This document shows positions 4,658 through 53,444 of a stretch of 64,000 nucleotides of DNA, piece by piece. Source of the DNA: Brachyhypopomus gauderio (taxonomy: Eukaryota > Chordata > Actinopteri > Gymnotiformes > Hypopomidae); the NCBI RefSeq assembly GCF_052324685.1, contig NW_027506904.1, positions 62,001 to 126,000 on the forward strand, in the 5' to 3' direction. Under the pieces are notes generated by a model. The model saw nothing but the letters and a program-made list of their open reading frames with translations, made no database searches and had not been told where the DNA came from. The translations under genes and the position numbers were made by a program. Within the stretch, counting starts at the first letter, position 1; every line of letters begins with the position of its first letter.

Positions 4658-7600
4658 TTATAAGTCCAGTTTTTGTGGCTTTACAATTGGCCTCCCAGAT
4701 CTGGTTCTGAGTATTGTGAGCTCTGATGTGGCACAGGGTGTTTGTGCCTTTTGAGTCTCTATGGTTGCAGAGTTAGTGAGACCCTGAGAGCTACTCTGAG
4801 CAGTGTTGTTGCTCTCCGCTCCATCCATAGGAATGAGATGGTGTCGATTCCTGCGAACGGTCCCATGGGGAACTTCGACCATGTAAGAGCGTGGTGTTGA
4901 GTGTTCTCCTAACACTGACCCTGTGACCTTTTGGTCTGTGACCCACACTTGTTTGCCAGGAAAGAGCTTATTTAAATTGTGTACTCTGTGACGTTTATTA
5001 AAGCGCATTTGGTCTGCACTTCTCCTCTCTCTCTCCCTTGAGCCTACAGTGGTGGCGTCGGGAAGTGATGGGTTCAGCACAGATGGCAGAGTCGGCACCG
5101 TAGTACGAAGTTGACGTCCCATCAGCAACTGCGCTGGACTGTAGCCATTTTGGAGAGGTGTCGCCCTATATGCCAGTAAGGCAAGATACGGGTCCGATGC
5201 CTTCTTGAGAAGATTCTTAACAGTTTGTATGGCCCGTTCTGCTTCCCCATTGCTGCGGGGGTATCTTGGACTACTGGTAACGTGTTTGAATCCAAATTTT
5301 GCTGCAAACTCCGCAAAAATACTTGATGAGTACTGAGGACCATTGTCGCTGACAACAGTCTCCGGGATGCCATGTCGAGCAAAAATTGACTTAAGATGAA
5401 CAGTGATGTCAATGGACTTCGTGAGGGAGAGGTTCACCACCTCGACATACCGGGAGTAATAATCTACTACCAGTAGGTATGTTTTCCCTTTCAAGGTAAA
5501 CAAATCTGTCCCCACCTTCTGCCAGGGTCTCTCAGGAAGTTCTGTTTGGATTAGCGGCTCTGTGTGGTTTGTACGTTCTTTGATGCATGTTCTGCAATTC
5601 AGTACAAGTTCGTTAAGCTGTTGACTCAATCCAGGCCACCAAACACTGTTCCTTGCGCGCTCCCGGCATTTCACCACACCTTGATGTCCTTCGTGCAGTC
5701 TTGCAAGAACGTCGTTCCTTAAGGCAGAAGGAATAACAAGTCTTTTTCCTTTAAGCAGGAGACCATCATGCACTGTAAGGAAGGCACGCTCCTCCCAGTA
5801 ATGCTTTTCTGGACCTATGCAGCGATTGAACTCTGGCCAGCCATCCTGACACATACTCATAACTCTAGAACACACACTATCTGCTTTGAGATGTTCCCTC
5901 AGTCCATCCAAATAAGATGTGGTTGCTGGAAGATGTGCCATGATGCTGTCCACATAGATGTTTGTACTCTCCATGAGCTCATCATCTGTCCTGACTGTTT
6001 CTTTCTGCAGCGGTGCACGTGACAGCGTGTCTGCTGTCCATAGACTTTTTCCCGGAACGTGAATTATTTTATAGGAATAACGCATGAGTCTCATCCTAAA
6101 GCGTTGTATGCGAGGGGGTAAGGCATCTAGCGCTTGAGCTCCCAGAAGACTGAGAAGTGGCTTGTGGTCAGTCTCCATTTCAAAGAAGCGGCCTATCAGG
6201 AAGTCTCTGAACCTTTCACATGCCCAAGTGAGCCCAAGGGCTTCTTTCTCTACCTGAGCATATCTCTGTTCAACTGGTGTGAGAGACCGAGATGCATAGG
6301 CTACTGGCCTCCATTGTGCACCCCATTTCTGCAACAGAACGGCACCCAAACCGAAGGATGATGCGTCTGCAGACAATTTTGTCTCTTTATTTGGGTCATA
6401 CAAAGCGAGTACGGGTGTGGATGTCAGATCCTTTTTCAAATCCGTAAATGCTTTGACTTGGTCAGGCCCCCAAAACCAGCAGTTCTTCTTGGACAGAAGG
6501 TCTCTGAGGGGTTTGTCTTTTTCAGCTAGCTGTGGTATGAATTTACCCAGTTGATTGACCATCCCCAGAAAGCTCCTTAGCTCACTGACATTGGCTGGCT
6601 CTGGCATGTCTTTGACTGCTGCTGTTTTCTCTGGATCAGGCCTCACGCCTGTACCAGAAAGGATGTGGCCCAAGAATTTCACCTCACGCTGTGAAAGGGC
6701 ACATTTTTCAGTGTTCAGTGTGATGCCAGCGTTCGCCATCCTTTCCAACACAGCAAGAAGGCGTGCATCATGCTCTTCCTGGGACTGGCCCCACACTAGC
6801 ACATCGTCCATGTGACAAACCACACCCTCCAGTCCTTCTGTGACTTCCGTGACCATTCGATTTTGGAAATGTTCAGGAGCCGAGGCTATTCCAAACGGCA
6901 GGCGGTTAAAAAAATAACGCCCAAATGGCGTAATAAAAGTTGTGAGCTTAGCAGACTCCTTAGCCAGAGGAATTTGCCAAAAACCCATGTTTGCATCTAA
7001 TTTGCTGAAAATTTTTGCACCTGCTAATAGGCCAAGTGTCTGTTCAACTGAGGGGAGGATGTATTTTTCTCGCTGTACTGACTCATTAAGCTTTGTAAGG
7101 TCAACGCATATACAAGGATTGTTCCCTGATTTTTTTGGTACTACCACCATTCCCGAGCACCATTCAGTTGGTTCCTCCACCTTGCTGATAACTCCCAACG
7201 TCTCCATACGCTCCAGTTCATCCTTGACTTTGGGCATAAGGGGTAATGGTATACGTCGTGGAGTGGTCAAGGAAAATGGCTCTGCCCCTGGTTTCAGTTT
7301 AATAGTGTATGGCTGCTGTATCAGACCTAGCCCGCTGCATAACTTTGGATAGCATTCTTTTAATGACTGGATGGTTAAGCTATCCACACGTGTGACCAGT
7401 CCTAGGCTAGTGATAGCAGGTCTACCTAATAGAGCTGCATGCAAACTTCTGATTACATACACTTCCTCCAGTGACTGCTTCTCATCTTTCTGTAGGAGCA
7501 AATGTGTGACCCCCAACACATCTAGTGGGGCGTGGCCTGGTCCCAATAAGTGTTTGGACACTGGCCTGAGCACTGGCTTTTTGTGGGCCTTGAACACACT

Positions 7601-8662
7601 ATGAAACATGTGCTCTGGCATGACAGTAACATCCGCACCTGTATCAATTTTGAACTTCACTGTACTGTCTTTGATTTTAATATCAACCCTCCATGGGTCT
7701 CCACCAGCTTCTACTGTGCCAAGAAATATGGCATCATCAAGCTCTTGAACTTCGTTCACTTTTTTGGATGATAAGCACACTTTCTGGTAATGTCCTTTCT
7801 TTCCACACTCATGGCAAATTATTGCGTTTGCTGGGCAGTGAGCTTTAGGATGGAAAGGGCTTTTGCCACATTTGCGGCATTTTAATTGTTTTTCTTTAAC
7901 AACGTGGCTGTTCTTTGCTCTCTGTCTGGCTTGATATGGCCTGTTTTTGCTTATAACACGGTCCACTGAGCCGGTTCCCTTGCTATAACTAGCGTCGCTC
8001 CGCAGGCTACTCTGCTGCTGCTTTACCGCTTCCGACTGTCTAGCCATTTCAATCGCCTTTTCCAGCGTGAGATCTTTGTCCAGTTGCATACGTTCGGACA
8101 AACGCATATCAGAAAGCCCTACAACTAGCCTATCTCTGATCAGCTCTTCACGCAGCGTACCGTACTTGCAGTGTTCCGTCAACGAATACAGCGCCGTAAC
8201 AAAGGAATCTACTGATTCGCTTTCGCTTTGCTTTCTCATGTTAAAACGTGCTCTTTCATAAATCACATTTTTCTTCACAACAAAGAAAGCCTGGAATCCG
8301 TCTTTTACCGCATCGTACTGTCGTTGTTGCTCCGCAGTCAAGTTCAGTCCCTTTAGTATGTCGTCTGACTCATCCCCCATGCAGTACATGAGCGTATTTA
8401 CCTGGTTATCTTGAGAAGAAGCATATAGATTACTGGCCTGACGGAAACGCTCAAACCGTCTGATCCATTTTTCCCATTCATGTGGTTTGGTGAAGTCGAA
8501 CGGCTCCGGCGGCTGTATGCTGAACGTAGCACTTGGGCCCGGCACAGGTGGCTGAATGCCCCCCGCGGCCGCATGGCCTGAAGCTTGGTCCAATTCCGAG
8601 GTGCTCATGTTTGCTAACTGGCTAGATTCAATGCCAACCACGCTATTTAAAGCTTGCTTCAA
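4658..8662 (-). CDS. Ty3/gypsy Gag-Pol polyprotein (1,334 aa)
   Basis: One open frame encodes all proteins needed for copy-and-paste transposition. In order it shows a Gag capsid-like region (about residues 50-220), two zinc-knuckle-type cysteine motifs (262-276 and 283-296), an aspartic protease (D340-T-G-A), reverse transcriptase with D556 in LDAN and the active-site motif HMDD at 617-620, RNase H (D766, later ETDHKP at 830), an integrase zinc-binding motif (H990, H993, C1023, C1026) and the integrase DDE triad D1053, D1106, E1142 with exactly 35 residues between the last two. A chromodomain is not apparent. HMDD differs from the commoner Y-x-D-D but keeps both aspartates. Gag and Pol are fused without a frameshift or stop. 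The start is the first ATG of the frame, 50 bp inside the 5' LTR boundary. Confidence 0.95.
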   Translation of the reverse strand: MKQALNSVVGIESSQLANMSTSELDQASGHAAAGGIQPPVPGPSATFSIQPPEPFDFTKPHEWEKWIRRFERFRQASNLYASSQDNQVNTLMYCMGDESDDILKGLNLTAEQQRQYDAVKDGFQAFFVVKKNVIYERARFNMRKQSESESVDSFVTALYSLTEHCKYGTLREELIRDRLVVGLSDMRLSERMQLDKDLTLEKAIEMARQSEAVKQQQSSLRSDASYSKGTGSVDRVISKNRPYQARQRAKNSHVVKEKQLKCRKCGKSPFHPKAHCPANAIICHECGKKGHYQKVCLSSKKVNEVQELDDAIFLGTVEAGGDPWRVDIKIKDSTVKFKIDTGADVTVMPEHMFHSVFKAHKKPVLRPVSKHLLGPGHAPLDVLGVTHLLLQKDEKQSLEEVYVIRSLHAALLGRPAITSLGLVTRVDSLTIQSLKECYPKLCSGLGLIQQPYTIKLKPGAEPFSLTTPRRIPLPLMPKVKDELERMETLGVISKVEEPTEWCSGMVVVPKKSGNNPCICVDLTKLNESVQREKYILPSVEQTLGLLAGAKIFSKLDANMGFWQIPLAKESAKLTTFITPFGRYFFNRLPFGIASAPEHFQNRMVTEVTEGLEGVVCHMDDVLVWGQSQEEHDARLLAVLERMANAGITLNTEKCALSQREVKFLGHILSGTGVRPDPEKTAAVKDMPEPANVSELRSFLGMVNQLGKFIPQLAEKDKPLRDLLSKKNCWFWGPDQVKAFTDLKKDLTSTPVLALYDPNKETKLSADASSFGLGAVLLQKWGAQWRPVAYASRSLTPVEQRYAQVEKEALGLTWACERFRDFLIGRFFEMETDHKPLLSLLGAQALDALPPRIQRFRMRLMRYSYKIIHVPGKSLWTADTLSRAPLQKETVRTDDELMESTNIYVDSIMAHLPATTSYLDGLREHLKADSVCSRVMSMCQDGWPEFNRCIGPEKHYWEERAFLTVHDGLLLKGKRLVIPSALRNDVLARLHEGHQGVVKCRERARNSVWWPGLSQQLNELVLNCRTCIKERTNHTEPLIQTELPERPWQKVGTDLFTLKGKTYLLVVDYYSRYVEVVNLSLTKSIDITVHLKSIFARHGIPETVVSDNGPQYSSSIFAEFAAKFGFKHVTSSPRYPRSNGEAERAIQTVKNLLKKASDPYLALLAYRATPLQNGYSPAQLLMGRQLRTTVPTLPSVLNPSLPDATTVGSRERERRSADQMRFNKRHRVHNLNKLFPGKQVWVTDQKVTGSVLGEHSTPRSYMVEVPHGTVRRNRHHLIPMDGAESNNTAQSSSQGLTNSATIETQKAQTPCATSELTILRTRSGRPIVKPQKLDL

Positions 8663-8697
8663 ACCGGGGGAAAAAAAAAATAAAAACTTCCTCTGTA

Positions 8698-8712
8698 CCT
8701 ACTCTGACACCA
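8698..8712 (-). other. Gypsy primer-binding site, tRNA-Leu-like
   Basis: Directly next to the 5' LTR the minus strand reads TGGTGTCAGAGTAGG. The first nine bases match the complement of a tRNA-Leu 3' end (…CTGACACCA) and the rest matches imperfectly. The assignment to leucine tRNA is from memory of tRNA 3' ends. Confidence 0.6.
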
Positions 8713-8886: not shown

Positions 8887-9390
8887 AAGGGCACGGCCTC
8901 CTTTTGATTATTCTTTTATTAATCTACAAAATAAAACATTTCAGTAACATAAACAGACACAGGGCAAGGTAAACTAAATGGCACACATAATTACAGACAT
9001 ATTTAAAATAATTGTACATTATCGTAACGTAATACAGATGAATAGCGCAGCCACGGGGGCGCATGGGTAAGTGGGGAATGCCCCATTGGACCGAGGCAAA
9101 TTACCCATGAGGCCCCAGCGCGGCTCAGTTAAAAGATAGGTTTATGATGGTTAGGTTGTACAATTATTAAATACGTGTGTAATTGTTAGTATCATTTAGT
9201 TTAGCTTGCCTTGTGTCTGTTTATGTGACTGTACAGTCGTTGTCACTCCCGCCATGTGTGTGTCGCCATCTCATAACACCTGTTCATATAAGAGTTTTAT
9301 GGGTAAATTCAACATCATTAAAAGCTCCTACTTGTTTACCCTGTGTGCTACCATATTCCACCAACCACAATTATGTCTGTTATTCTTTTA
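8887..9390. repeat. Longer repeat block, copy 1 continued (right of gypsy)
   Basis: This continues the block broken by the gypsy insertion. It holds a second foldback segment (8942-9231), then a segment ('gtgtgctaccatattccacc') that is a diverged relative of the 759-bp unit, and passes into the 759-bp unit at about 9390. No gene is seen. Confidence 0.85.
8942..9231. repeat. Long imperfect inverted repeat (foldback), copy 2
   Basis: Same structure as 3621-3913, with arms starting 'cagtaacataaac' and ending 'gtttatgtgactg' around a GC-rich centre with 'ggggaatgcccc'. Confidence 0.7.
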
Positions 9391-10623
9391 AGAAAGCACT
9401 TGTCTACCAACTTTTACTCCAGTGCAAACCACAATATAGCAAAATGCACATGTTTAATCATTTATTAAGCTGATTAGTCTTTGCAACACATTATTCTTAT
9501 CATTCTTCCGTAGTGCAGCTAGGCTACTTCCGTTATGCTTTCCATTCCACAATCTAGAGTCTTAAAGAATTCAAATTCCTGCTGTGTGACCTTCAGAGTC
9601 GCCTGCTTCACAACCCATGTGAGCTGTCTAGAACCACACAGGTGCTTCACTCTGGTAACGTTATTTACAGGTGGCAAGGGCAGCATATTTCTCCAGCAAC
9701 ATCTTTAGAGTTTGGCTTCCAATACCACTGACCATTCTCATGCGCTAAAGAGTCACAAGCATATTTTTACAATCACAATGATTGGCACCTTTCATGACAC
9801 TTTTAAAGCCACCTGTGTTGAAAATCGTGCCCATGTCTCTAAGCAGCCATGTCTCAACACAGAAGATACTTCTCCAAAGCTCATGGGCACACCACACCAG
9901 AGACATGAACTCTCTTCAGCAAGATCACAGCCTCCAACATCTTTCAAGCAATTCCATCACATAAACCAAGCTGTTTGGGCTAGGACAAACATTCACAAGT
10001 TCCTGATCCAAAGAGACCATAAAGTCTACATACAAAGCCGTACATAACCCATGAGTAGTCCATAAGTAGAATATCAGCAAAGGCTCCTGCATATAGAGCA
10101 TGTGTGCTGCAATATTCCACACACCACAATGATGTATGCCATCCTTTTAAGAAAGCACTTGTCTACCAACTTTTACTCCAGTGCAAACCACAATATAGCA
10201 AAATGCACATGTTTAATCATTTATTAAGCTGATTAGTCTTTGCAATACATTATTCTTATCATTCTTCCGTCATGCAGCTAGGCTACTTCCGTTATGCTTT
10301 CCATTCCACAGAGTCTTAAAGAATTCAAATTCCTGCTGTGTGACCTTCAGAGTCGCCTGCTTCACAACCCATGTGAGCTGTCTAGAACCACACAGGTGCT
10401 TCACTCTGGTAACGTTATTTACAGGTGGCAAGGGCAGCATATTTCTCCAGCAACATCTTTAGAGTTTGGCTTCCAATACCACTGACCATTCTCATGCGCT
10501 AAAGAGTCACAAGCATATTTTTACAATCACAATGATTGGCACCTTTCATGACACTTTTAAAGCCACCTGTGTTGAAAATCGTGCCCATGTCTCTAAGTAG
10601 CCATGTCTCAACACAGAAGATAC
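9391..10623. repeat. 759-bp tandem repeat array, second block
   Basis: About 1.6 units of the 759-bp repeat. The second unit has a 5-bp deletion near 10310 ('ccacagagtc' against 'ccacaatctagagtc'). The unit is broken at ATAC (10620-10623) by the ERV and resumes at 22638. Confidence 0.93.
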
Positions 10624-11166
10624 TGTTGGGAATTTTCTTCTCCGACCCAGACGGGCCCCAACACCGCCCCGATGAACCGACTGGTTTTTGACTGAGTGGT
10701 CCAAGCAAAGTCTTGACAACAAAAGTTCTTTTAAAATGATTTATATAGAATATAATTGAATGCAATATAATAGAAGTATTCGTGGTACAAACTCTTCAGT
10801 GCACTGGTGCTAGTTGCCTAGGAATCTACCTAACCCAAGTGGATCTCAGCAGTGTCCAAGCGAAAAGCCTCTCGTGCTGGGCGATGTCCTTTCTTTCATA
10901 CTCTCTGTCCATAAGTTTCGAATTGTTAAGTTTCGATAACTCCCCCAATCCTGGCTGCTCTCCATGGAAATTCACCTGCTCCTCTTCTCCCAGCCTGTGT
11001 GCCTGGTTATCTAAAAACTGCTTGCTACACATCCTGCACTGAATAGGCCCCTTCTGTTCTCCTCAAGGCCACTGAGGCCTCCTTACTCCTGCTTTCCCAC
11101 AGTCTTCCTGAAAAACACTAAATTGACACATCAAGTTATTAGCCTTTAATTTTCTTTTTTCCAACA
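10624..11166 (-). repeat. ERV LTR (3' LTR in element orientation)
   Basis: 543 bp, beginning 'tgttgggaattttcttctcc' and ending 'cttttttccaaca' on the plus strand. On the minus strand a TATATAAA box lies at 10740-10747, about 117 bases before the U5 end, which implies short R and U5 regions. Confidence 0.95.
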
Positions 11167-11644: not shown

Positions 11645-13879
11645 TCACACAGAACCGTCTTCTTCAGATGATATGTCATCATCATCCTCCGCCATCAGTG
11701 GCATAGTGTATGGTGGTGGGTTCTTTGCATCCCCCTTCTCAATCGCGGCTGTGATCAACCTTTGGGTGAGAGATCTGATACATGGTATACAACAACATCC
11801 ACAAATAACAACAATTGCAATAAACACTGCTACTGACATAAACAAGGACATAATTAGTGCCTTCCATTTCCCAAACACCTTCGTGAACCACTCCTCCATG
11901 GGGTTACTGATACCTGAGGCCTCCTGCATCTCCTTAGATAAAGCCTTCAGTCCGTCCAGAGCTCTGGTCACCGACCCGTCCGGTGCGGTGTTATTGGGAA
12001 TGAAGGTACAACAGTTGTCGCCAAACATGAAACATACACCCCCTTTTTCCGCCAGGAGCATATCTAGAGCCATTCTGTTTTGTACGGCCATCAGTGAGGT
12101 AGCTCTCAGTTGTTCGCTCAGCCCCTCTATTGCGTCTCTCGTTAGGTTGGTTAATCTCAGCACATTGTAATGGACAAAGTTGATCCTATCTACATTCTTG
12201 TTCGGTGTTACTGGAAACAAGGCTGATATAATTGGAATGTTCTCAAAGCCCGTAGCTATTTGATCAACTAGCTTGTATTCATTGGGAACCCCCCGAGGCA
12301 CTCCTATGGAGTCAATGTATGTTGGTGACCCTATGGACAAATCAAAGGCATCACGCTTCTTTCTCCCTTGGGCTATAGCAGGCTGCGGTGTGATTTCCCT
12401 CAGCCCTATCATTGTTATTGGTGTGATTAGTCTAACCATAGCACAGATTCCTTTAGCTTTTCCTGGTATTAATGCCAGCAGAGTGTGTCCTCCGCAGTAC
12501 CACCAGATCCCTGCCCGGGCTACTCTCCCTATCCCCGGGACCTTCGTTGTGGCGTTACACCAATCTGGTTCCATTTCTCCCACACTCATGATTGCGTCTT
12601 TCTCGGTCAAGTTAAAACATTGGTACTGTCCTTTAAGTTTTACTGGCACGAAAGGAGCGTTACCTCCTTCCAAATTTTTGACGTACGGAAAAATACTGTC
12701 CAGGCTGGAACAATTTGAGGTCGCAGTACTTTTCACCTTAGTTAAATTCAACATACACTGATATCCTACTGGATCTGTTTCAGGATTCAGTGGGGCTGGT
12801 GACGTCATTAACGCGGGTCGGGCCGCTGCACAGGCCACACAACCTTCTAACCCATTTTCTCTACTGTTTTGTTCTAGCCATGACAACCACAAATTCGAGC
12901 CGCTGTAACCGGTTGCTAATTCTATTAACTGCTGGGACGATAATTTAGTGAAATCTGTGGTTAGAGTGAACTTGTCTGCTGAATCCTCCATCTTCTCTAT
13001 TTCTGCCTCAGGTTTTGCTGGACTGAGCAGCTTGGGTTTGGCTAAATAGTTGAGTTTAATTATTCCCCATATGTCACGTCCTGATTGTTCCACCCCCAGG
13101 GTGAAGTACAACGGTCTGTTATTACCCCATATCTGCCCATTCCATTTGACAGAAAAAGTTACTGGATTTTGGGACACGTGATAGTCTCGCTGAAACGACA
13201 CATCGACCCACCATTTGCTCAAAGAGGTCGTGGACGGGTTACCCTTCTTATCTCCTAATGTAGGTTTCCATCTCCCCGAGTACTTTATCACTGACCCCCA
13301 ACCAGGACACCAGTCTGCACTATAGAAACTCCCCCTTCCTTGACAGCCCGCATTAACTTGATTGGTCCAACATATGTACAAATCACATCCTCTGTATGAG
13401 GCATTGGCTCCCCCGCAGTCCACTACCTCACATAAGTCAAAAGTCCAGCTCGAGGCTGTACCATCTCTATAACTCAATTCCACACCTCCGTATGTCCGTA
13501 CACACCGGTCCTTGGATTGTCCTACTGGCCTGGTTCCAGCTTCTCTTGGTTTTCTTACTTTAAAGTCTATTTTCTCTGGTTTGGTCGCGTTTACTAGCGG
13601 GTTAGGGCTGTGGATCTCATCGGGCCTCACCTCTTTGCAGACAGTGTGATTGTCGTCCCACCGACACAAAGTTACGTTCACGTTATTGGGTTGTTTCTGA
13701 TTTCCTACACTAAATATTACCACCGCTCCTATTATCACCGCGGCTAGAAACGTTCCCCCCCATAGCCAAGTCCATGTTCTCAAAGTTAATCTCCCTACTC
13801 TAACATATTGTTGGTACTGAGCCTCATCTGGACGTCCGACACGTCCCGACAACATGTCTCTTATTTCCCACAGTTCCAT
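11645..13879 (-). CDS. env: ERV envelope glycoprotein (744 aa, open)
   Basis: This uninterrupted frame encodes a class I retroviral envelope precursor. An N-terminal segment of about 38 residues rich in charged and aromatic residues precedes a hydrophobic stretch (about 39-57), so the signal or leader peptide looks long. The surface subunit is cysteine-rich with several N-x-[ST] sites and a CXXC motif (CVAC, 347-350). A furin-type RKKR at 506-509 marks the SU/TM boundary. TM has a CX6CC motif (C616, C623, C624) after a gammaretrovirus-like heptad and immunosuppressive-domain-like region (about 590-616), a membrane anchor (about 674-697) and a cytoplasmic tail with PPPY (721-724). The start ATG lies one base after the pol stop codon, so expression probably needs a spliced mRNA. 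Viral Env mediates entry. Whether this copy is expressed cannot be seen. Confidence 0.93.
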   Translation of the reverse strand: MELWEIRDMLSGRVGRPDEAQYQQYVRVGRLTLRTWTWLWGGTFLAAVIIGAVVIFSVGNQKQPNNVNVTLCRWDDNHTVCKEVRPDEIHSPNPLVNATKPEKIDFKVRKPREAGTRPVGQSKDRCVRTYGGVELSYRDGTASSWTFDLCEVVDCGGANASYRGCDLYICWTNQVNAGCQGRGSFYSADWCPGWGSVIKYSGRWKPTLGDKKGNPSTTSLSKWWVDVSFQRDYHVSQNPVTFSVKWNGQIWGNNRPLYFTLGVEQSGRDIWGIIKLNYLAKPKLLSPAKPEAEIEKMEDSADKFTLTTDFTKLSSQQLIELATGYSGSNLWLSWLEQNSRENGLEGCVACAAARPALMTSPAPLNPETDPVGYQCMLNLTKVKSTATSNCSSLDSIFPYVKNLEGGNAPFVPVKLKGQYQCFNLTEKDAIMSVGEMEPDWCNATTKVPGIGRVARAGIWWYCGGHTLLALIPGKAKGICAMVRLITPITMIGLREITPQPAIAQGRKKRDAFDLSIGSPTYIDSIGVPRGVPNEYKLVDQIATGFENIPIISALFPVTPNKNVDRINFVHYNVLRLTNLTRDAIEGLSEQLRATSLMAVQNRMALDMLLAEKGGVCFMFGDNCCTFIPNNTAPDGSVTRALDGLKALSKEMQEASGISNPMEEWFTKVFGKWKALIMSLFMSVAVFIAIVVICGCCCIPCIRSLTQRLITAAIEKGDAKNPPPYTMPLMAEDDDDISSEEDGSV

Positions 13880-13880
13880 C

Positions 13881-14753
13881 CTAGGATGGAAGATGGTGCA
13901 CCACCACCTTGGTACCGGTTGGTTTAAGTAAAGTTTTAATGATTGGTTTCACAGTCCTCCAGTCTAATCCGTCTAGTCCACAACCCAGCTTCGGTATGGC
14001 TAGAGTGTTAATGTTCAATGATATTAACAATGTGGCCAGGTGTTGTATGCTTGAAATCAGATCTCCTAATTCTGGCTTCTCCCTGTAATATCTTTTGGTC
14101 ACTAAATGGAATATAATGTGTGTCTGTGTGGTTTGTGTGGCACACTTGCCTATGGGCACCTTGGCTATACCTGTAGTGCCAAACGCTTGTCTGACCTGCA
14201 GAGCCACTCCAGCTCCCAGGTTCAGGTCCGCGCTCACACAGTGTGCTATAGCCTCACAGTCAGTCTCCAACAGGTCTCCTTCACCTTCCTCCCACCAGTC
14301 CTCAGCTGTGATGTATTCTCTGTAAAAAGCTACACTGGGGTCGGTACTCACCACCAACTCCTTCCCTGGGGCTTCTCCTGTCTCCTCCAGGTGTGTCTTG
14401 ATCTCTCCTGTGGTTCTTGTTGGTTCTTTTGCTGCAACACAGTGTGAAATGTGGTACCAAGTCTTACCTTTGTCTTTCCTCACTTTCACTGAGTGCTCGT
14501 TGGCACCTTCGACCTCCCACGGGCCTGTCCACCGTGGCTCGTTCCACTTCCTCTTGTGCACCTTGATCCTTACCCAATCCCCTGGCTTCACCTTCACCTT
14601 GGGTGATTCCAGGTCTTCTTTTCCTTTTTCCTGTTGAACAGACTTATTGATTTCACAAAGCAACTTGGTTAATTCTCTCATGTACTCTGACATCTCCTGT
14701 TCCTGGACTTCCAAAGCTGGTCCCTCAATCCTCGGTCGAGGGCACCCTGGCAT
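13881..14753 (-). CDS. ERV Pol C-terminal segment: integrase C-terminal domain plus OARD1-like macrodomain (290 aa)
   Basis: This segment continues the integrase frame just after an in-frame TGA at 14757-14759 and begins with an ATG three bases later. Residues 52-108 resemble a retroviral integrase C-terminal SH3-like domain (GDWVRIK, EPRWTGPWEV). Residues of about 150-290 resemble a macrodomain of the OARD1/TARG1 or Poa1p type: a GDLL start, AHCVSADLNLGAGVA (170-184), LVTKRYYREKP (217-227) and LAIPKLGCGLDGLDW (251-265). Human TARG1 uses Lys84 and Asp125. The matching K220 and D261 here are also 41 residues apart. Such enzymes bind ADP-ribose and remove ADP-ribose from glutamate or process ADP-ribose-1''-phosphate. 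The domain ends one base before env. It may be made as the end of Pol, or separately if translation restarts after the TGA. Confidence 0.85.
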   Translation of the reverse strand: MPGCPRPRIEGPALEVQEQEMSEYMRELTKLLCEINKSVQQEKGKEDLESPKVKVKPGDWVRIKVHKRKWNEPRWTGPWEVEGANEHSVKVRKDKGKTWYHISHCVAAKEPTRTTGEIKTHLEETGEAPGKELVVSTDPSVAFYREYITAEDWWEEGEGDLLETDCEAIAHCVSADLNLGAGVALQVRQAFGTTGIAKVPIGKCATQTTQTHIIFHLVTKRYYREKPELGDLISSIQHLATLLISLNINTLAIPKLGCGLDGLDWRTVKPIIKTLLKPTGTKVVVHHLPS

Positions 14754-14756
14754 GGG

Positions 14757-15596
14757 TCATCCTGTCATGAGCTGGTGTGGTGAGAGATTGTATTCTCCCG
14801 TGGGGGTTGCTCTCATGGACATCAACACTAGTGGCAGCGCCTGAACCCAGTCCATGTCTCCTGCTGCGCACACTTTGGCCAGTTTAGTCTTAATGGTCTG
14901 GTTGGCTCTTTCCACCAACCCCTGTGACTGTGGGTGGTAGACAGTGCCAAACTTGTGGGTTAGGCCCAGCTTTTGTTCTACTTCTGCCAAGTGTTTGTTA
15001 TCAAAGTGGGACCCATTGTCACTTCTAATCACTTTTGGTAGGCCGTACCTGGGAATCAACTCATTTTGCAACCATTTTATGACTGATTTTGAATCTTCCT
15101 TTTTGGTGGGTATAGCTTCTACCCACTTGGTGAATCTGCCTACCATGACCAGCAGGTACCTGTACCCCCTTACCCTGTTGTCTGGCCCCATGTCTGTGTA
15201 ATCGATCACAATCTCCTCAAATGGCCCCGCGGGCACTGGGTATCCTCCAATTCTCACCCGGTATGGTTTCTTCACATTGTATGACTGACAGATATCGCAT
15301 TCGCTCACGTATTGCTTCACATGGTCTCTGAGGTATGGATGCCACCATAAACATTCTAATTTGGTCACCATGGCCGACACTCCGGAGTGAGTAGGCCCAT
15401 GTGCTTTGCATAGTATCAATTTCATCTTCTCTAAGGGCAAAACTACTCTCCCTTCTGGACTCCTCCAGAGTCCTTTAGTGACTGTGGCTCCCCGGTCTAT
15501 CCACAATTGCTTCTCATAGACCGTGGCTTGTTCTTGGATCTGTGCCAGGTGGCTCTCCGTCAACTCAGGCATGTTATGAGTTTCCAGCAACAACAA
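14757..15596 (-). CDS. pol: ERV integrase, zinc-binding and catalytic core (279-aa open segment of pol)
   Basis: This open segment lies between the two internal stops of pol and is in the same frame as both neighbours. It shows an HHCC zinc-binding motif (H66, H70, C100, C103) and the catalytic triad D132, D193, E229 with 35 residues between the last two. It inserts viral DNA into the host chromosome. The segment ends at TGA (14757-14759) within the region after the core. The first ATG is at 15596, but the frame is open up to the TAG at 15678-15680, so this Met is not a real start: the protein would normally be part of Pol. The integrase itself has no visible active-site damage. Confidence 0.88.
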   Translation of the reverse strand: MLLLETHNMPELTESHLAQIQEQATVYEKQLWIDRGATVTKGLWRSPEGRVVLPLEKMKLILCKAHGPTHSGVSAMVTKLECLWWHPYLRDHVKQYVSECDICQSYNVKKPYRVRIGGYPVPAGPFEEIVIDYTDMGPDNRVRGYRYLLVMVGRFTKWVEAIPTKKEDSKSVIKWLQNELIPRYGLPKVIRSDNGSHFDNKHLAEVEQKLGLTHKFGTVYHPQSQGLVERANQTIKTKLAKVCAAGDMDWVQALPLVLMSMRATPTGEYNLSPHQLMTG

Positions 15597-15677
15597 GCTC
15601 TGTGGGTTGTACCCTCCAGCAGCTTTGGCTGCTCTGTCAGCAGCTTCATTACCTCTAGAAACAAAACTGTCATTACC

Positions 15678-18515
15678 CTAATGTCCTCTTACCTTTATCA
15701 CTGCCACTTCTTTGGGTAACATGATAGCTTCACTCAACTCATGTACTGCTCTCAAATGTTTGATTGGCTGTCCTGTGGCGTTAGTGTACCCATTATCCAT
15801 CCACCTGACTAGTTCATGGTGGATGACCCCGTGCACGTATGCTGAATCTGTGTAAATGTTCACAATCTGACCTGACGCGTGTTCCAGTGCTCTAGTGAGT
15901 GCGACCATTTCTGCCAGCTGAGCTGAAGCTGGTTGTGGAACCACTCCTGATTCCACCTCCTCCCACTCTTCCCCACATGCTTGTACCACAGCGTAAGAGG
16001 CCTTCAGTTCGTTACCTTGTCTCCAACAACTCCCATCTGAACAGAGTTCCCATGCTCCTGGTTTAGTAATTCTGACCTTGTGCAGTTCTGGTCTGAGCTG
16101 AATGTATCTTTCTGTGGCGTCAGCGCAGTCATGTGGTGTCGCATCTTCGGCTACTTCAATGTTATCAGTCAGATTCACAGATTCACAAGTTGTACGTGCA
16201 GTGTTGTACGTGATGTGTGGCTGTGTGAGTATGGCTTTTATCTTGTTCTGTCGTGCTCTTGACAAAGAAAAGGCTTGTGAGTTTATGAACGCCATTACTC
16301 CGTGATTGGTGCTGACTATTAGTGGGTGACACATTACCAAGTGTGCTGTCTTCTCTATCGCTGTGGTGAGTCCTGCCATGTATGTTGTGCATGGTCCTGT
16401 TCCTATCACTGGTTGATCTAATTTGGAACTGTGAAAAAATAAAATGTTCCTTCCTTCACTCTCCCCCTTCTGAAAGAGACAAGCATGAACATGATTGTCT
16501 CTTACAGAGACATTTAAATGAAAAGGTTGTGTGTAGTCTGGTGCTGCTAATTCAGTAGCGCTAGCAAGTGCTTGTTTTAGAGTTATAAAATCCCTCTCTG
16601 CCTCAACCGTCCAGTCAAGCTCCACCTTCCCGTTACTCAGACCTTTTGACACTGCGAGTTTTCTGAGGCTGTGAGCTAAATCACTGTAGTTAGGTATGTA
16701 GTTGCGGCAGTAGCCTGTCAGGCCTAAAAATGACATCATTTGGGACACTGTAGTGGGCTTTGGAAATGACAGTATTGACTGTCTCTGATTTGGAGTCAGG
16801 GTGTGACCTTTGTGTGAGATGTTTCTCCCCAGAAAGGTGACCATCGGCCTGGCCACCTGGAGTTTTGACTTGTTCACTTTGTAACCTAATTCAGCTAACA
16901 AGGTTAGAATGGTTATGGTGTCTCTAAGGCACTTATCGGGTGAAGTACTAGCTATTAACAAATCGTCCACGAACTGTATTAGTACGGTGTTATAGTCAAT
17001 CAAATCATTGTCAGTTAATCTAGACAGATCTTTCAACAGACATTGATTGAAGATGCCTGGTGAGTCTTTGTAGCCTTGAGGTAGCCTGTTGTATGTGTAC
17101 TGTTGACCTTTAAAGGTAAACGCAAAAATGTCTTTCACATTCTCATCAATTGGTATAGAAAAGAAAGCATTAGCTAAATCTATGCATGAAAAGCTGCAGT
17201 GTTCAGTCGTTAGGTTCTGCAAAGATCGATAGGGGTCAGGTACTGGTATGTTCTCAGTTACAGTGACATCATTAATGCGCCTCAAATCATGCACCATACG
17301 ATACTCATCTTTTCCAGGTTTTTTAACAGGTAGTATGGGCGTGTTCCACGGTGACGTCGTGGGTTTCAGAACTCCAACTTTGATTAAATCTGCAATGGTG
17401 TCTGTAATACCTGCCATGGCTTCTGGCTTGATTCGGTACTGTGGCTGATGAACGACTGTTTCTCCTGGCTTTAACCTAATAGGAGCCATGTGGTGTGATG
17501 CACATCCTACATCTACCTTTGTCGTGGTCCACAAGTTGGCTGGGACCGTCTCTAGTTGTTCTTTGGCCTGGGGGTGATCCAACAGTGCTCTGCCGTGTGT
17601 GGCTGTCAGGGGCTGGTTACAGAAGTACGCCAAGTCACTGGTGTCACGTGCGACTCTCCAGTACTTACCATCCGACGTACCCTCTACCCCTGGCAGACAG
17701 GTTGGGCGAAACTGTTCCTTCATGGCAGTGGCCAGCATGGGGCCCAGCTCACGAGGTTCGTGTCCAGCCGAGACCAACAGCGAGACATGTGGTAGTGAAT
17801 CCTGCTGGTCCGGGTTTCTCCAGTACGTCATCTGTTCTCCTGTTAACACAACTAGTGCAGCCACACCTTCAGGTCCAAAAATCATTGATTCACAATTTAT
17901 ATTTTGTAATTGACCTTCAATGTTATTCCACAGCTGTCCGTAAACCCCATCCCCCCCTCTGATGTAATTAAAAGTGCAGTGTGTGCTGTCTATTGGTGGG
18001 GTCATACTCTGAAGTGACAGGAACCATGGTTTCCATAAATTAAACGTGTAAAGCAAATTTTTAGCAGTTGCTTGTTCCTCAGGATGTTGTAATGTGGCCC
18101 AGTAAATGTGAGCTGGGCCGTCCGCTGCTTGTTGATTAAGTATTCTGAGGCGCTCATCGTGGTTGGTGACAGAGACAGCTAATTTACCTTCACTCGGTGT
18201 GCATTCAATAATAGCTGAAAATTGACACAACAAATCTCTACCTAACAAATTAATTGGGCACTGTTCTGAAAACAAAAATGTGTGCTCGACCTGTGGGCCT
18301 GAGCCCACTGACACCTTCAAGGGCACAGTCAGTGGCTGCAGTGTAGTTTTTCCCAGAAATCCAGTAGTGGATAGTGACATCTTCGACAAGTAGCCTTTCC
18401 ACTTCCTGTCTGTTAAGACTGATGTGGTGGCTCCCGTGTCGACTAAGAACTCCACTGGCTCCCCCTCCACCAATAGACATACAACTGGTTCACTGCATGT
18501 GGGGGAACTGGACAT
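15678..18515 (-). CDS. pol: ERV protease, unexplained insert, reverse transcriptase and RNase H (945-codon open part of pol)
   Basis: The first part of pol is in the same frame as gag and separated from it by UGA (18525-18527). Protease has the active site D26-T-G-A. Residues of about 120-330 form an insert that is neither protease nor reverse transcriptase and contains THCTF (H179) and PHVSL (H243). Reverse transcriptase follows, with D446 in SCIDLANAF and FVDD at 515-518. RNase H has D827, E869 and D890. The frame stops at a TAG (15678-15680) inside the C-terminal end of RNase H, and the retroviral frame carries on directly after it (a GNE-AD-type RNase H ending). The ATG at 18515 is only the first Met after the gag stop. 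Synthesis would normally be by readthrough from gag. Confidence 0.9.
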   Translation of the reverse strand: MSSSPTCSEPVVCLLVEGEPVEFLVDTGATTSVLTDRKWKGYLSKMSLSTTGFLGKTTLQPLTVPLKVSVGSGPQVEHTFLFSEQCPINLLGRDLLCQFSAIIECTPSEGKLAVSVTNHDERLRILNQQAADGPAHIYWATLQHPEEQATAKNLLYTFNLWKPWFLSLQSMTPPIDSTHCTFNYIRGGDGVYGQLWNNIEGQLQNINCESMIFGPEGVAALVVLTGEQMTYWRNPDQQDSLPHVSLLVSAGHEPRELGPMLATAMKEQFRPTCLPGVEGTSDGKYWRVARDTSDLAYFCNQPLTATHGRALLDHPQAKEQLETVPANLWTTTKVDVGCASHHMAPIRLKPGETVVHQPQYRIKPEAMAGITDTIADLIKVGVLKPTTSPWNTPILPVKKPGKDEYRMVHDLRRINDVTVTENIPVPDPYRSLQNLTTEHCSFSCIDLANAFFSIPIDENVKDIFAFTFKGQQYTYNRLPQGYKDSPGIFNQCLLKDLSRLTDNDLIDYNTVLIQFVDDLLIASTSPDKCLRDTITILTLLAELGYKVNKSKLQVARPMVTFLGRNISHKGHTLTPNQRQSILSFPKPTTVSQMMSFLGLTGYCRNYIPNYSDLAHSLRKLAVSKGLSNGKVELDWTVEAERDFITLKQALASATELAAPDYTQPFHLNVSVRDNHVHACLFQKGESEGRNILFFHSSKLDQPVIGTGPCTTYMAGLTTAIEKTAHLVMCHPLIVSTNHGVMAFINSQAFSLSRARQNKIKAILTQPHITYNTARTTCESVNLTDNIEVAEDATPHDCADATERYIQLRPELHKVRITKPGAWELCSDGSCWRQGNELKASYAVVQACGEEWEEVESGVVPQPASAQLAEMVALTRALEHASGQIVNIYTDSAYVHGVIHHELVRWMDNGYTNATGQPIKHLRAVHELSEAIMLPKEVAVIKVRGH

Positions 18516-18524
18516 CGGGCAGCT

Positions 18525-20801
18525 TCATTGGCCACCAGGTGGCGCTGGCATGTATTGCATGCCAGGAGGCACAACCTGTTGTCCTTGTGTGAGTGCGGGT
18601 TTCTGCTGGTAATTTACGTTTTGGGGTTGCTGGTACTGTATTGGCTGTTGATACTGTACTGGTTGTTGCTGCTGATACTGCATTGGTTGCTGGTATGCTG
18701 GCTGTTGCTGCATCGGCTGCTGGTACAGCATTGGCTGCTGCTGCTGCGTCATCGGACAATCTCTTGCCCAGTGGCCCATCTGGCCACAACCAAAACAGCC
18801 GTTGCTTTGTGTGGTTTGGAAGTTCCCTGCTCTGCCTCCCCTGAACCTACCTTTGGCTCTGCCTCTGCCTCGGTATGGGCCTGCCTGGGCGTAGTAACCG
18901 GGCTGTTGTGGCACCGCCCAGCTGTTGACCTGTTGTGGCATAACATAAGGTTGCATCATGGGTTGTATGGGTTGCATCACTGGTTGCGCGGGTGGCTGTA
19001 CGGCCGCTACCTGTACTGGAGTGTCTTCCTTTGACACTAATTGCTTTTTAGGCTTTGAATTGTCCTTCTCCCTCAACAATTTGAGTAATGCATCCTTCAT
19101 TAACTTATCAGTGTTTTCGCCCTTCTCTGCCTCACGCTTCATATGGTGTGTAATTACAGCTTCCCATTCACCTTCTTCCTTTTGATCCAGCGCGACCACA
19201 TCTTTTAGTTTCGTTTGCACTCCCTCAGATAAACTCGCCACGACCGCTGCTCTGTACATAGCCCGCACTGGGATTGATTTATCATGCCTAACGCCAGTTT
19301 TAGCTTGCCAGATTTCTTTGCACCTATCTAAGTACGACATCGGGTCTTCATCTTCTTTAGGTTTAACCCCTGATAAGGCTGCCGTGTCAAACGTGTCCTG
19401 ATTTTGCAATCTCAGCTGTCCCCACAAAGCACTTCTTATTCTACCGAACGGGGCCTCATCAGCCAGATGCTCTGTTCCAGCCGCCTTCTCGGCTGTAGAC
19501 AAAATACTTAAAACTCCCATAGCTTTAAACAATGTCCTTATATCTCCCAAACACAACATGTCCCCAGCCGTGTACTGTTCAAATTTAGACAAGAAATACT
19601 GAACGCCCTTTTTAGGATTGGGTAATTTATCTATCATAGTGTGCAAATCTCTGTGTGTCCACGGAGCGTATGTGTGTGCGTAACTGCTCCCTGGTACTGC
19701 CATTAGCGGATAATGGCCACCAGGGGTCGACGTGTTCTTGGCTTTTGATCGCGTGACCACACCGTGCCTGTCATAGTAGGCGGGCACTCTCACCCATTGC
19801 TCGGATTCAGTCAGGTTTATACATTCATCTCCCACCTCGCTCTCCTCTGAAGAGGGAGTTTTCACTCGTCTGCTCGCCCCACCCTCGTCATTCTCCGCTT
19901 CCCATTCTAAATTTTCACCAGTCACAATCAATGTATCTCTACAGTCAGGTGCGCCTCTATTTCTCCTTTTATCATCCGCAGCGCATTTCTTTTGCTGTCT
20001 CGCACGCTCTTTTTCCAACTTAGCCTCTTCCTGCCTGATGGCTTTCTCCACGTCACAGACCACTTTCTCTGCTCTGTTCAACGTCTGTTCGAACCGGGTG
20101 GGGGCACTCAGACTCAAACTCTCATCCATTCGCTGTTCAATTCTTTGCAATGCATTATTTATCTCTGTTTCTCCAGCTTTCTCGCGCGCACAGTCTTCGA
20201 GCCTCGCTAGTCTACTCTCTATTTTATCCATAGCCACATCACTGACAACCTCCATTACCACTTGTCTCCCCTCATCACATTCACGCTCTCTCACTGATTT
20301 TGGACGTGCAGAAGCCCCGTCCACACCAACGTCACTCATTTCACTCACAGACACAGGCGCCATCAGCGCTGCACGCGGACATTGAGGAGCACTGGGTTCA
20401 CACGCTTTTTCTGCATAGGGAGGGGGCACAGGGAGTTCTGTCTTTTTGGTTTCAACTCGTTCTTTATCATTAATCTTCTGACAAATTTTCCGAAATGTTC
20501 TCACATACGACAAATAAGTTTCAGCTTCTTCCAGCTGGATTTTACGCTTTTGCTTAGTTAGGGCTCCGCTAGCCTCTAATCTTTTTTTCTCTTTATTAAC
20601 CTGTGTGACCCAATGCTTCTCGATGTGCTCCCAATCAACCTGATACACACCACGGTCGTCCGGGTCTGGCCACAACCCTTCGGATCGCATCTTCTCAAAA
20701 CATTTTTTCACATACATCACTGTGTCAGACCTCATTCTCGGCACAGCACGTTTCTCCATAGTATCAACCAAATAATCCTCCAAACCTTTAATATTATCCA
20801 T
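18525..20801 (-). CDS. gag: ERV Gag polyprotein (758 aa, open)
   Basis: Structural polyprotein of the virion. The N-terminal matrix-like part contains a PPPY late-domain motif (126-129), a type that recruits NEDD4-family ubiquitin ligases for budding. A charged, probably coiled-coil stretch follows (about 190-275), then a capsid-like region (about 365-560), a basic RG-rich stretch (644-658) and one CCHC zinc knuckle (C669, C672, H677, C682). After the knuckle comes an unusual Gln/Pro/Tyr-rich low-complexity tail (about 686-735) made of repeats such as QYQQP. The frame ends with TGA at 18525-18527 and the next frame in the same register is protease, so Gag-Pol is expected by stop-codon readthrough. 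The start is the first ATG, 1,294 bases downstream of the 5' LTR. Confidence 0.9.
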   Translation of the reverse strand: MDNIKGLEDYLVDTMEKRAVPRMRSDTVMYVKKCFEKMRSEGLWPDPDDRGVYQVDWEHIEKHWVTQVNKEKKRLEASGALTKQKRKIQLEEAETYLSYVRTFRKICQKINDKERVETKKTELPVPPPYAEKACEPSAPQCPRAALMAPVSVSEMSDVGVDGASARPKSVRERECDEGRQVVMEVVSDVAMDKIESRLARLEDCAREKAGETEINNALQRIEQRMDESLSLSAPTRFEQTLNRAEKVVCDVEKAIRQEEAKLEKERARQQKKCAADDKRRNRGAPDCRDTLIVTGENLEWEAENDEGGASRRVKTPSSEESEVGDECINLTESEQWVRVPAYYDRHGVVTRSKAKNTSTPGGHYPLMAVPGSSYAHTYAPWTHRDLHTMIDKLPNPKKGVQYFLSKFEQYTAGDMLCLGDIRTLFKAMGVLSILSTAEKAAGTEHLADEAPFGRIRSALWGQLRLQNQDTFDTAALSGVKPKEDEDPMSYLDRCKEIWQAKTGVRHDKSIPVRAMYRAAVVASLSEGVQTKLKDVVALDQKEEGEWEAVITHHMKREAEKGENTDKLMKDALLKLLREKDNSKPKKQLVSKEDTPVQVAAVQPPAQPVMQPIQPMMQPYVMPQQVNSWAVPQQPGYYAQAGPYRGRGRAKGRFRGGRAGNFQTTQSNGCFGCGQMGHWARDCPMTQQQQPMLYQQPMQQQPAYQQPMQYQQQQPVQYQQPIQYQQPQNVNYQQKPALTQGQQVVPPGMQYMPAPPGGQ

Positions 20802-22073
20802 GATATAACTCCGATTTTTAAACTACTTCCAAATTACTTTTGCTTCGATTCAGTAAATTTTAAAACTTTTTCGTTGTACTCACTAGCACTTTAATACCCC
20901 CGAATTAATTCAGTAAACTTTATCACTGTATCGTCGTGTTCGCAAGCGCTTTAATTCGCCAGCGCGCACCCCAAGGGCAGACAGACACAAGTTAATATCT
21001 CCACACTCCAAACAACTCCAGCTCAACACAGCTCGCGCGAGTTTCACTTCCAGCACTTAAATCGTACGTTTACGGAGCGTCATAAACCAAATTATAATTT
21101 CATGCATGAAGATATATGATAATTTTTGTTTTACACTTTAACCTCTTATGAAATGTTTCTCTTGTGCTTGTGTACACAATGATGAACGTCTTTCTTGGGG
21201 GCTCATGCAACTTACTCAGGGGTTCAAATGTCCTCACAGAGGCTCATGGATTTATGGGCGTGGGTTTGTAAGTCCCCCAATGAAAGGCTCTCAAGTTTTA
21301 TTATAGCACGTATGCTCAAACAATTTATACAGGTCTTTATTCAACATAAAACCACACGGTACATGAAAACCAACCCAACACTGCAAATTTGCAAACACGC
21401 ATACACAGATACAGCTGTAGTTTCACCAATCACGCACGCAATTTCAACAAAACACACGGGGGCCCCCCAAAACCGGCTTCATTTAACCGTGACCGAGCGC
21501 GTCCTCCACCGTTCTCTTTTTTTTTTTTTTTTTTAGAACAATAGTTCCCCTTTTTTTTGAACGTGGGCTACCTACTCGTCACCTGAGCGCGTCCTCCACC
21601 GTTCTTTTTTTAGAACCAAAGTTCTTTTTAAGAACGTGGGCTACCTGCTCTTTCTCTGGGCACGTCCTCCACCGTTCTCTTTTAGAACCAAGGTTCTTTT
21701 TAGAACGTGGGCTGCCTACTTTCTCTGAGCGCGTCCTCCACCGTTCTCTTTTAGAACCGATGGGCTGCCTACTCTTTAACCGTTTACTGCAGTTACAGGG
21801 TGTCCTCCTCCCGACTTTATGAGTCGTAGGGCAATCCTCCTGTCTATATATCGAGTTTGTAACACGTATACAATTTCAATACTAAATTTACAGAGAGTAT
21901 TTCGCCTCGACCATTTAGTGACTGAACTTTAATTTAGCCTATGACGTAGTAACATCAGCCAATAGGAGAGAATGGCTCCTTACCTTTTTTCAGACCGCGC
22001 GGTTTAGTTCAGTCACCTCACGGACGGATTGACCTCCTCTCTTGTCCTAATTGCAGAATTCGACTCCAGCCAA
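20802..22073 (-). promoter_or_regulatory. ERV leader (5' untranslated region) with tandem hairpin-like repeats
   Basis: A long leader between the primer site and gag. At about 21494-21772 it holds four tandem copies of a 55-90-bp unit containing 'cgtcctccaccgttct' and 'gaacgtgggct', with short inverted repeats built from AGAAC and GTTCT between them. Leaders of retroviruses usually carry the dimerisation and packaging signal and the env splice donor. I cannot place these exactly. A T-rich run sits in the first copy (21517-21534). Confidence 0.6.
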
Positions 22074-22095: not shown

Positions 22096-22637
22096 TGTTG
22101 GGAATTTTCTTCTCCGACCCAGACGGGCCCCAACACCGCCCCGATGAACCGACTGGTTTTTGACTGAGTGGTCCAAGCAAAGTCTTGACAACAAAAGTTC
22201 TTTTAAAATGATTTATATAGAATATAATTGAATGCAATATAATAGAAGTATTCGTGGTACAAACTCTTCAGTGCACTGGTGCTAGTTGCCTAGGAATCTA
22301 CCTAACCCAAGTGGATCTCAGCAGTGTCCAAGCGAAAAGCCTCTCGTGCTGGGCGATGTCCTTTCTTTCATACTCTCTGTCCATAAGTTTCGAATTGTTA
22401 AGTTTCGATAACTCCCCAATCCTGGCTGCTCTCCATGGAAATTCACCTGCTCCTCTTCTCCCAGCCTGTGTGCCTGGTTATCTAAAAACTGCTTGCTACA
22501 CATCCTGCACTGAATAGGCCCCTTCTGTTCTCCTCAAGGCCACTGAGGCCTCCTTACTCCTGCTTTCCCACAGTCTTCCTGAAAAACACTAAATTGACAC
22601 ATCAAGTTATTAGCCTTTAATTTTCTTTTTTCCAACA
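22096..22637 (-). repeat. ERV LTR (5' LTR in element orientation)
   Basis: 542 bp, differing from the other LTR only by one fewer C in a C-run ('ctccccaatcc'). The minus-strand TATATAAA is at 22212-22219. The ATAC target duplication follows at 22638-22641. Confidence 0.95.
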
Positions 22638-23596
22638 ATACTTCTCCAAAGCTCATGGGCACACCACACCAGAGACATGAACTCTCTTCAGCAAGATCAC
22701 AGCCTCCAACATCTTTCAAGCAATTCCATCACATAAACCAAGCTGTTTGAGCTAGGACAAACATTCACAAGTTCCTGATCCAAAGAGACCATAAAGTCTA
22801 CATACAAAGCCGTACATAACCCATGAGTAGTCCATAAGTAGAATATCAGCAAAGGCTCCTGCATATAGAGCATGTGTGCTGCAATATTCCACACACCACA
22901 ATGATGTATGTCATCCTTTTAAGAAAGCACTTGTCTACCAACTTTTACTCCAGTGCAAACCACAATATAGCAAAATGCACATGTTTAATCATTTATTAAG
23001 CTGATTAGTCTTTGCAATACATTATTCTTATCATTCTTCCGTCATGCAGCTAGGCTACTTCCGTTATGCTTTCCATTCCACAATCTAGAGTCTTAAAGAA
23101 TTCAAATTCCTGCTGTGTGACCTTCAGAGTCGCCTGCTTCACAACCCATGTGAGCTGTCTAGAACCACACAGGTGCTTCACTCTGATAACATTATTTACA
23201 GGTGGCAAGGGCAGCATATTTCTCCAGCAACATCTTTAGAGTTTGGCTTCCAATACCACTGACCATTCTCATGCGTTAAAGAGTCACAAGCATATTTTTA
23301 CAATCACAATGATTGGCACCTTTCATGACACTTTTAAAGCCACCTGTGTTGAAAATCGTGCCCATGTCTCTAAGCAGCCATGTCTCAACACAGAAGATAC
23401 TTCTCCAAAGCTCATGGGCACACCACACCAGAGACATGAACTCTCTTCAGCAAGATCACAGCCTCCAACATCTTTCAAGCAATTCCATCACATAAACCAA
23501 GCTGTTTGGGCTAGGACAAACATTCACAAGTTCCTGTTCCAAAGAGACCATAAAGTCTACATACAAAGCCATAAATAACCCATGAATAGTCCATAT
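22638..23596. repeat. 759-bp repeat, third block (right of ERV)
   Basis: The repeat unit broken by the ERV resumes at ATAC (22638) and a further unit follows. These copies have a few private substitutions ('ctctgataacatt', 'ccataaataacc') shared with the copy at 27100-27774. The block ends at the 8-bp sequence GTCCATAT (23589-23596), duplicated around the next hAT element. Confidence 0.92.

Positions 23597-53400: not shown

Positions 53401-53444
<44 letters not shown>

Follow-up and report, generated by a model that had tools for sequence, protein, structure and literature searches.

A TARG1-type macrodomain at the end of Pol in an endogenous retrovirus of Brachyhypopomus gauderio

The provirus and the terminal domain of Pol

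The analysed stretch of the genome of the electric fish Brachyhypopomus gauderio (64,000 nucleotides, G000:C60:62001-126000; henceforth the window) carries on its minus strand a full-length provirus with paired long terminal repeats (LTRs), a target-site duplication, gag, pol and a TLV-type env (Table 1), and the pol of this provirus ends in a macrodomain that is the subject of the present analysis. The gag gene and all pieces of pol share one frame, with Pol following the Gag stop. Judging from this arrangement together with the single Pol frame, the TLV-type Env, the LTRs and the short duplication, the provirus is a class-I (gamma/epsilon-like) endogenous retrovirus (ERV). One Pol fragment of the window is 99% identical to a public protein of the same species (P0006), and the insertion is young, since the LTRs differ by no substitution.

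The macrodomain had been proposed in a sequence-only reading, which placed it at 13884-14306; this is correct, the segment being residues 151-291 of the open piece 13881-14756 on the minus strand and ending at the Pol stop. Pfam Macro matches the segment with 26.1 bits (cut-off 22), and human OARD1 (C6orf130) is the top PDB sequence match (E 1.3e-16). The score against human OARD1 is 63.2 bits, compared with a best score of 4.4 among 1000 shuffles of the segment, which rules out a chance motif match. In the comparison of predicted folds, the domain has a macro fold that is nearest to TARG1. DarG, known from a bacterial toxin-antitoxin context, is the second-best class by fold and by sequence and has the catalytic Lys at the same place, but it matches more weakly: the best TARG1 chains outscore the best DarG chains in the PDB sequence and fold comparisons, with a single TARG1 NMR model, 2eee, ranking slightly under DarG in one fold comparison. 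The NCBIfam DarG model matches residues 159-287 with 67 bits, far from its whole-protein cut-off of 250; the same scan showed no TARG1 model. The domain follows the integrase C-terminal domain in the same frame, as had been stated (MLVIN_C, residues 57-109, 26.1 bits, slightly below the cut-off of 29.2). By these matches, the segment is a TARG1-class macrodomain that forms the C-terminal domain of Pol, behind integrase, in a fish class-I lineage.

In TARG1, Lys84 attacks the distal ribose and Asp125 resolves the lysyl intermediate, as described in passages of PMC6397177 and PMC9967889. The same pair is present in the window with the 41-residue spacing that had been read from the sequence; only the numbering (K220/D261) was off by one, the residues being Lys221 and Asp262. 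The GDLL and AHCVS motifs of the window align to GDLF and AHCIS in the adenosine/ribose loops (GDL, HC.S), and the GxG loop also aligns. The TARG1 signature pattern TKx(30,35)Px[IL]GxGxD, given in a passage of PMC6397177, is found at residues 220-262 (x33). It occurs in 10 of the 133 collected proteins. Eleven of these have the domain, and the one that lacks the pattern, P0133, is cut before the site. The catalytic Lys and Asp are present in all 10 proteins that are complete over the site, window included. The domain shares with OARD1/TARG1/C6orf130 the fold, the ligand-loop motifs, the catalytic pair with its spacing and the signature, so that the proposed class is borne out, and it looks built to remove ADP-ribose marks. 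It differs in context and sequence: OARD1 is a small multi-exon gene, whereas the window domain is an intronless part of a retroviral Pol with 29-30% identity.

The same Pol contains another candidate enzyme, between protease and reverse transcriptase (RT). The predicted model of this region (pLDDT 87.7) has as its top PDB fold matches CNPase catalytic domains and the goldfish RICH protein, with E about 1e-7 (mouse CNPase 7.7e-8, probability 1.00), although the TM score is only 0.48-0.62 among the 50 fold matches listed. There is no Pfam match at E 10 and nothing convincing in a PDB sequence search. His63, Thr65, Pro126 and His127 of the piece are invariant or nearly so across 38 rows, and the region is predicted to be a 2H fold with two H-x-T/S motifs. 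2H domains of fish retroviruses are already known, as a passage of PMC9503650 states.

Table 1. Features of the provirus in the window
Feature	Position	Strand	Basis or remark
5' LTR, TG...CA	22096..22637	-	99.8% identical to 3' LTR; sole difference is an indel
3' LTR	10624..11166	-	LTR comparison
ATAC, left copy of 4-bp target-site duplication	10620..10623	+	
ATAC, right copy of 4-bp target-site duplication	22638..22641	+	
gag open piece with CCHC zinc knuckle	18525..20822	-	stop codon 18525-18527 shares the pol frame
pol piece: protease, CNPase/2H-like domain, reverse transcriptase, RNase H	15681..18524	-	Pfam, fold comparison
CNPase/2H phosphoesterase-like region, HCTFNY and HVSLLV motifs	17535..18167	-	predicted fold
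In-frame pol stop codon of window copy	15678..15680	-	
Integrase zinc-binding and core domains	14760..15677	-	Pfam Integrase_H2C2, rve
In-frame pol stop codon of window copy, upstream of integrase C-terminal domain	14757..14759	-	
Integrase C-terminal domain, MLVIN_C-like	14430..14588	-	Pfam 26.1 bits, under 29.2 cut-off; predicted mainly strands
Linker, integrase C-terminal domain to macrodomain	14301..14429	-	residues 114-150 pLDDT <50
TARG1-type macrodomain, residues 153-291 of last open Pol piece	13884..14300	-	
Lys221 codon, aligned to TARG1 Lys84	14094..14096	-	position hand-computed from residue number
Asp262 codon, aligned to TARG1 Asp125	13971..13973	-	position hand-computed from residue number
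env, TLV_coat type	11645..13879	-	TLV_coat 38.4 bits; first ATG 13877-13879, just past Pol stop

Copies in the genome and selection on the domain

A six-frame search of the assembly (840 contigs, 797 Mb) yields at least 121 macrodomain matches, of which 47 lie in open frames of 1443-1584 amino acids and 25 in frames of exactly 1544. A stop falls inside the match in two of the 47 long-frame copies, one being among the 25, and uninterrupted Pol-macro copies with 1544-amino-acid frames exist in the genome. Three copies (G000:C7:28645881, C7:29254934 and C64:709619) are found in an open frame of 2077 amino acids, longer than the 1544 seen in most, and their match to the 134-residue query is limited to residues 1-122. 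The 20 best-scoring copies, the one in the window among them, were examined with their flanks. All 20 have the integrase C-terminal motif and the Pol stop directly after the domain, 19 have the integrase core motif in frame, and 16 have no stop across the 500 codons preceding the domain; the latter observation rules out an assembly artefact or an accidental frame.

Among 100 of the 121 copies that were analysed further, 95 have the full length and stay in register, judged by identity at more than 100 of the 134 residues, and represent 73 distinct DNA sequences and 35 distinct proteins; the other five (L050, L089-L092) were dropped. Lys and Asp are both kept in all 95, and an internal stop is present in four. 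Compared with the window, the distinct variants show 61 synonymous changes over 98.7 sites, 53 nonsynonymous changes over 303.3 sites and 3 stops, a ratio of 0.28. In the two most divergent copies, the ratio of nonsynonymous to synonymous rates (dN/dS) is 0.21 (dS 0.29) and 0.09 (dS 0.25). In the most divergent one, C6:33225604, dN/dS is 0.15 in the integrase C-terminal part, 0.20 in the macrodomain and 0.29 in the linker, the last from four changes of each kind. Given these low nonsynonymous ratios, the macrodomain was probably under purifying selection while the family copied itself. The invariant Lys and Asp and the low ratio are opposed to a decayed or dead passenger; loss of the pair and random decay, named beforehand as an outcome that would speak against the proposal, are not what the related copies show.

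Related Pol proteins and the origin of the fusion

A search with the C-terminal part of P0055 retrieved nine proteins, among them eight Pol proteins in which the domain has the same position: P0055 itself (97 member sequences), P0126, P0127, P0128, P0129, P0130 (Garra rufa), P0131 (Danio aesculapii) and P0133 (Triplophysa rosa, cut short). The three named species are cypriniforms; P0129 comes from a Cetobacterium bin and is probably host fish DNA. All eight share with the window the order of integrase C-terminal domain, linker and TARG1-type domain at the Pol end, but their macrodomains are 30-38% identical to that of the window, and the six included in the RT tree form a separate clade. Across the 15 pairs of these six proteins, macrodomain and RT identity differ by no more than 5 points in 13. 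Of 70 Pol-like proteins long enough to include the integrase C-terminal domain, 9 have the macrodomain, the window being counted among them. Its absence from the other 61 is weakened as an observation because gene models may stop early, 53 of the 61 ending 5-63 residues past the integrase C-terminal domain.

Domains of this class also occur in other settings. P0132, encoded on a 10.6-kb contig and read as gypsy-like, has a TARG1-type macrodomain between protease and RT. In P0005, a zebrafish gene model with a macro domain, the N-terminal part resembles the Pol linker by eye. Seven loci on viral contigs of 19-394 kb each contain a TARG1-like frame of 140-179 amino acids; the neighbours of two of these, L001 and L006, were examined and neither locus looks retroviral. 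On the L001 contig, from IMG/VR, the TARG1-like macrodomain gene (5941-6360) lies immediately next to a WGR-PARP gene (6375-7592; Pfam PARP 83 bits), an apparent writer/eraser pair for ADP-ribosylation in a virus.

The RT-RNase H tree comprises the window and 60 proteins (61 rows); of the 96 proteins that contain enough of this piece, 36 fall short of the integrase end and were omitted, and P0127 and P0128 are too short in it. In this tree, the window is apart from the six other Pol-macro proteins, two changes are needed, and a single change suffices in none of 200 bootstrap trees. Inheritance of the complete Pol from one Pol-macro ancestor is rejected (single clade, approximately unbiased (AU) test p 0.0097). 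A quicker, earlier RT tree with 123 rows gave three changes, one of them at P0029, which has 1075 amino acids and no integrase match and ends too early to score. Two captures and one capture spread by recombination both fit these results, whereas vertical descent from one Pol ancestor fits poorly. One old gain followed by many losses may likewise account for the pattern, as may recombination between viruses.

The macrodomain tree (17 rows, two of them OARD1; P0128 and P0133 (both with incomplete domains), the viral L004, which is in the same open reading frame (ORF) as L003, and L006 were left out) is built on a short domain with long branches and gives no resolved order among the window, OARD1 and the other ERV domains. 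Under two models, a single clade of all fish-ERV domains is not rejected (p 0.059 and 0.139); p is 0.037 and 0.040 for the window with P0005, 0.008 and 0.003 for the window with the other Pol-macro domains without P0005, and 0.034 and 0.036 for OARD1 with the latter domains. The OARD1 gene of the host itself is located on G000:C21 near 1,044.7-1,045.5 kb, comprises at least four coding exons and encodes the same catalytic pair. Its product shares 71% identity with human OARD1, 30% with the window domain and 45-51% with the domains of the other viral clade; the viral domain is therefore old or fast evolving, and a recent capture from B. gauderio OARD1 is unsupported. The suggested capture from a host OARD1-type gene stays a proposal: the tree, with its two OARD1 rows, does not place the viral domain inside OARD1. 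An intronless OARD1-type viral domain would match the expectation for a captured mRNA, yet one that is old or fast evolving.

Macro domains as such were known in fish retroviruses before. According to a passage of PMC4977317, which refers to Basta et al. 2009, ORFs for CNPase or a macro domain are occasionally present in epsilon-like ERVs of fish, the two kinds of domain also seen in the window; those macro domains, compared here through the citing account, may or may not be of TARG1 type and fused to Pol. The earlier remark that none was known in a retroviral Pol is to be read with this in mind. A search of titles and abstracts, with few subscription journals covered, gave no TARG1-type domain fused to retroviral Pol among the matches listed. 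In PMC9503650, a survey from 2022 that covered 21,191 viral proteomes, the stem retrovir occurs twice, both times in a single place dealing with 2H domains, and the passages found of a 2020 survey of viral macrodomains (PMC7729036) hold no statement on macro domains of fish retroviruses. What deserves testing here is the TARG1 type, the Pol fusion and the conservation. The work of Basta and colleagues is said to have surveyed four model teleosts, from which the host of the window, a member of Gymnotiformes, differs.

Possible function

The TARG1-class domain of Pol probably acts as an ADP-ribose eraser against host ADP-ribosylation, with a likelihood of roughly two in three. Gag-Pol would be made and processed, and the macrodomain would enter the virion still attached to integrase or, after cleavage within the flexible linker, on its own. 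In a newly infected cell, Lys would form and Asp would resolve the lysyl-ADP-ribose intermediate, following the TARG1 mechanism, and ADP-ribose would be removed from Asp/Glu in proteins of the virus or the host, or else from the ends of nucleic acids. The likeliest benefit would be that ADP-ribose attached by PARPs, either interferon-induced or of chromatin, no longer impedes the incoming virus or the integration complex. We infer packaging with Pol, hydrolase activity and a benefit against host ADP-ribosylation at or before integration. A parallel exists in coronaviruses and alphaviruses, where a macro fold within the viral polyprotein reverses host ADP-ribosylation (passages of PMC9503650 and PMC10499221).

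Several observations weigh against a selected eraser. The Pol of the window copy is interrupted by two in-frame stops (15678-15680 and 14757-14759), so that no intact Pol-macro protein results from it by ordinary translation. The five copies of 100 that failed the register mean that badly decayed copies were not counted, and dN/dS, calculated from few changes, varies between 0.05 and 0.43 among the 14 copies that differ most. The conservation also fits a binding role, and with only 29-30% identity to OARD1, the substrate specificity may have changed. In the other clade, two of the 15 pairs show a macrodomain that lags behind RT by 11-12 points of identity; compared with the linker, the macrodomain is more conserved in 13 pairs, equal in one and less conserved in one. 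Pfam Macro is below the cut-off in P0055 (21.9 bits) and P0126 (17.5) and gives no match at E 1 for P0130, P0131 and the truncated P0133. Finally, with the domain in 9 of 70 proteins, most such viruses manage without it.

The main alternative role is in binding. The C-terminal tail of gammaretroviral integrase binds chromatin proteins, and the macrodomain lies directly behind the integrase C-terminal domain, on a flexible linker, at the same place in two Pol lineages; fused to integrase, it might mainly bind ADP-ribose on PARP-marked chromatin or proteins and steer or stabilise the integration complex, with hydrolysis secondary. However, retention of both catalytic residues in 95 of 95 copies and 10 of 10 proteins seems more than pure binding needs, and P0132 has the same class of domain away from integrase, between protease and RT; such a role appears rather unlikely. 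The CNPase-like fold in the same Pol brings up another possibility, the clean-up of by-products of RNA end repair such as ADP-ribose cyclic phosphate, in which the 2H domain would open the cyclic phosphate and the macrodomain would remove the 1'' phosphate. In the KptA-2H-Macro route, as set out in a passage of PMC9503650, one of these activities directly follows the other, but we consider this option improbable. Slightly more improbable still is a DarG-like repair eraser that would remove ADP-ribose from viral cDNA or RNA modified by host PARPs: DarG is the runner-up class by fold and sequence, and TARG1 has been proposed to act on DNA (a passage of PMC9967889), whereas the DarG model score is far under its cut-off, the best TARG1 chains rank above the best DarG chains (2eee excepted, as noted), and no DarT-like writer is found in a Pfam scan of the five open pieces.

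Returning to the eraser reading, a bolder version can be put forward, one that we hold as tentative and at well under even odds. Fish retroviruses might have gained, at least twice and in separate Pol lineages, a TARG1-type hydrolase behind integrase together with a CNPase/2H domain in one Pol, that is, a particle-delivered two-enzyme kit that would erase ADP-ribose marks and process cyclic or 2'-5' linked nucleotides at the site of reverse transcription and integration. Macro and 2H domains occur together in some coronaviruses, and the retroviral kit, if real, would be a counterpart of that pairing. If the domain is active, ADP-ribosylation would be a front line between retroviruses and their hosts, beyond RNA viruses with cytoplasmic replicases. 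The many near-identical copies in one living fish, along with the cypriniform relatives, make it testable which host PARP mark has to be removed and at which step (cytoplasm, nuclear entry or integration).

Outside the provirus, the window contains a second retroelement (4658-8698, minus strand) with an uninterrupted pol frame of 1346 amino acids that includes RT, RNase H-like and integrase domains; a Pfam scan of this element gave no Macro match. Repeats of about 760 bp form an array around the provirus, with copies on both sides of the insertion (9342-10624 and 22638-23595). An open frame at 53399-54751 on the plus strand matches Syntaphilin and is probably an exon of a host gene.
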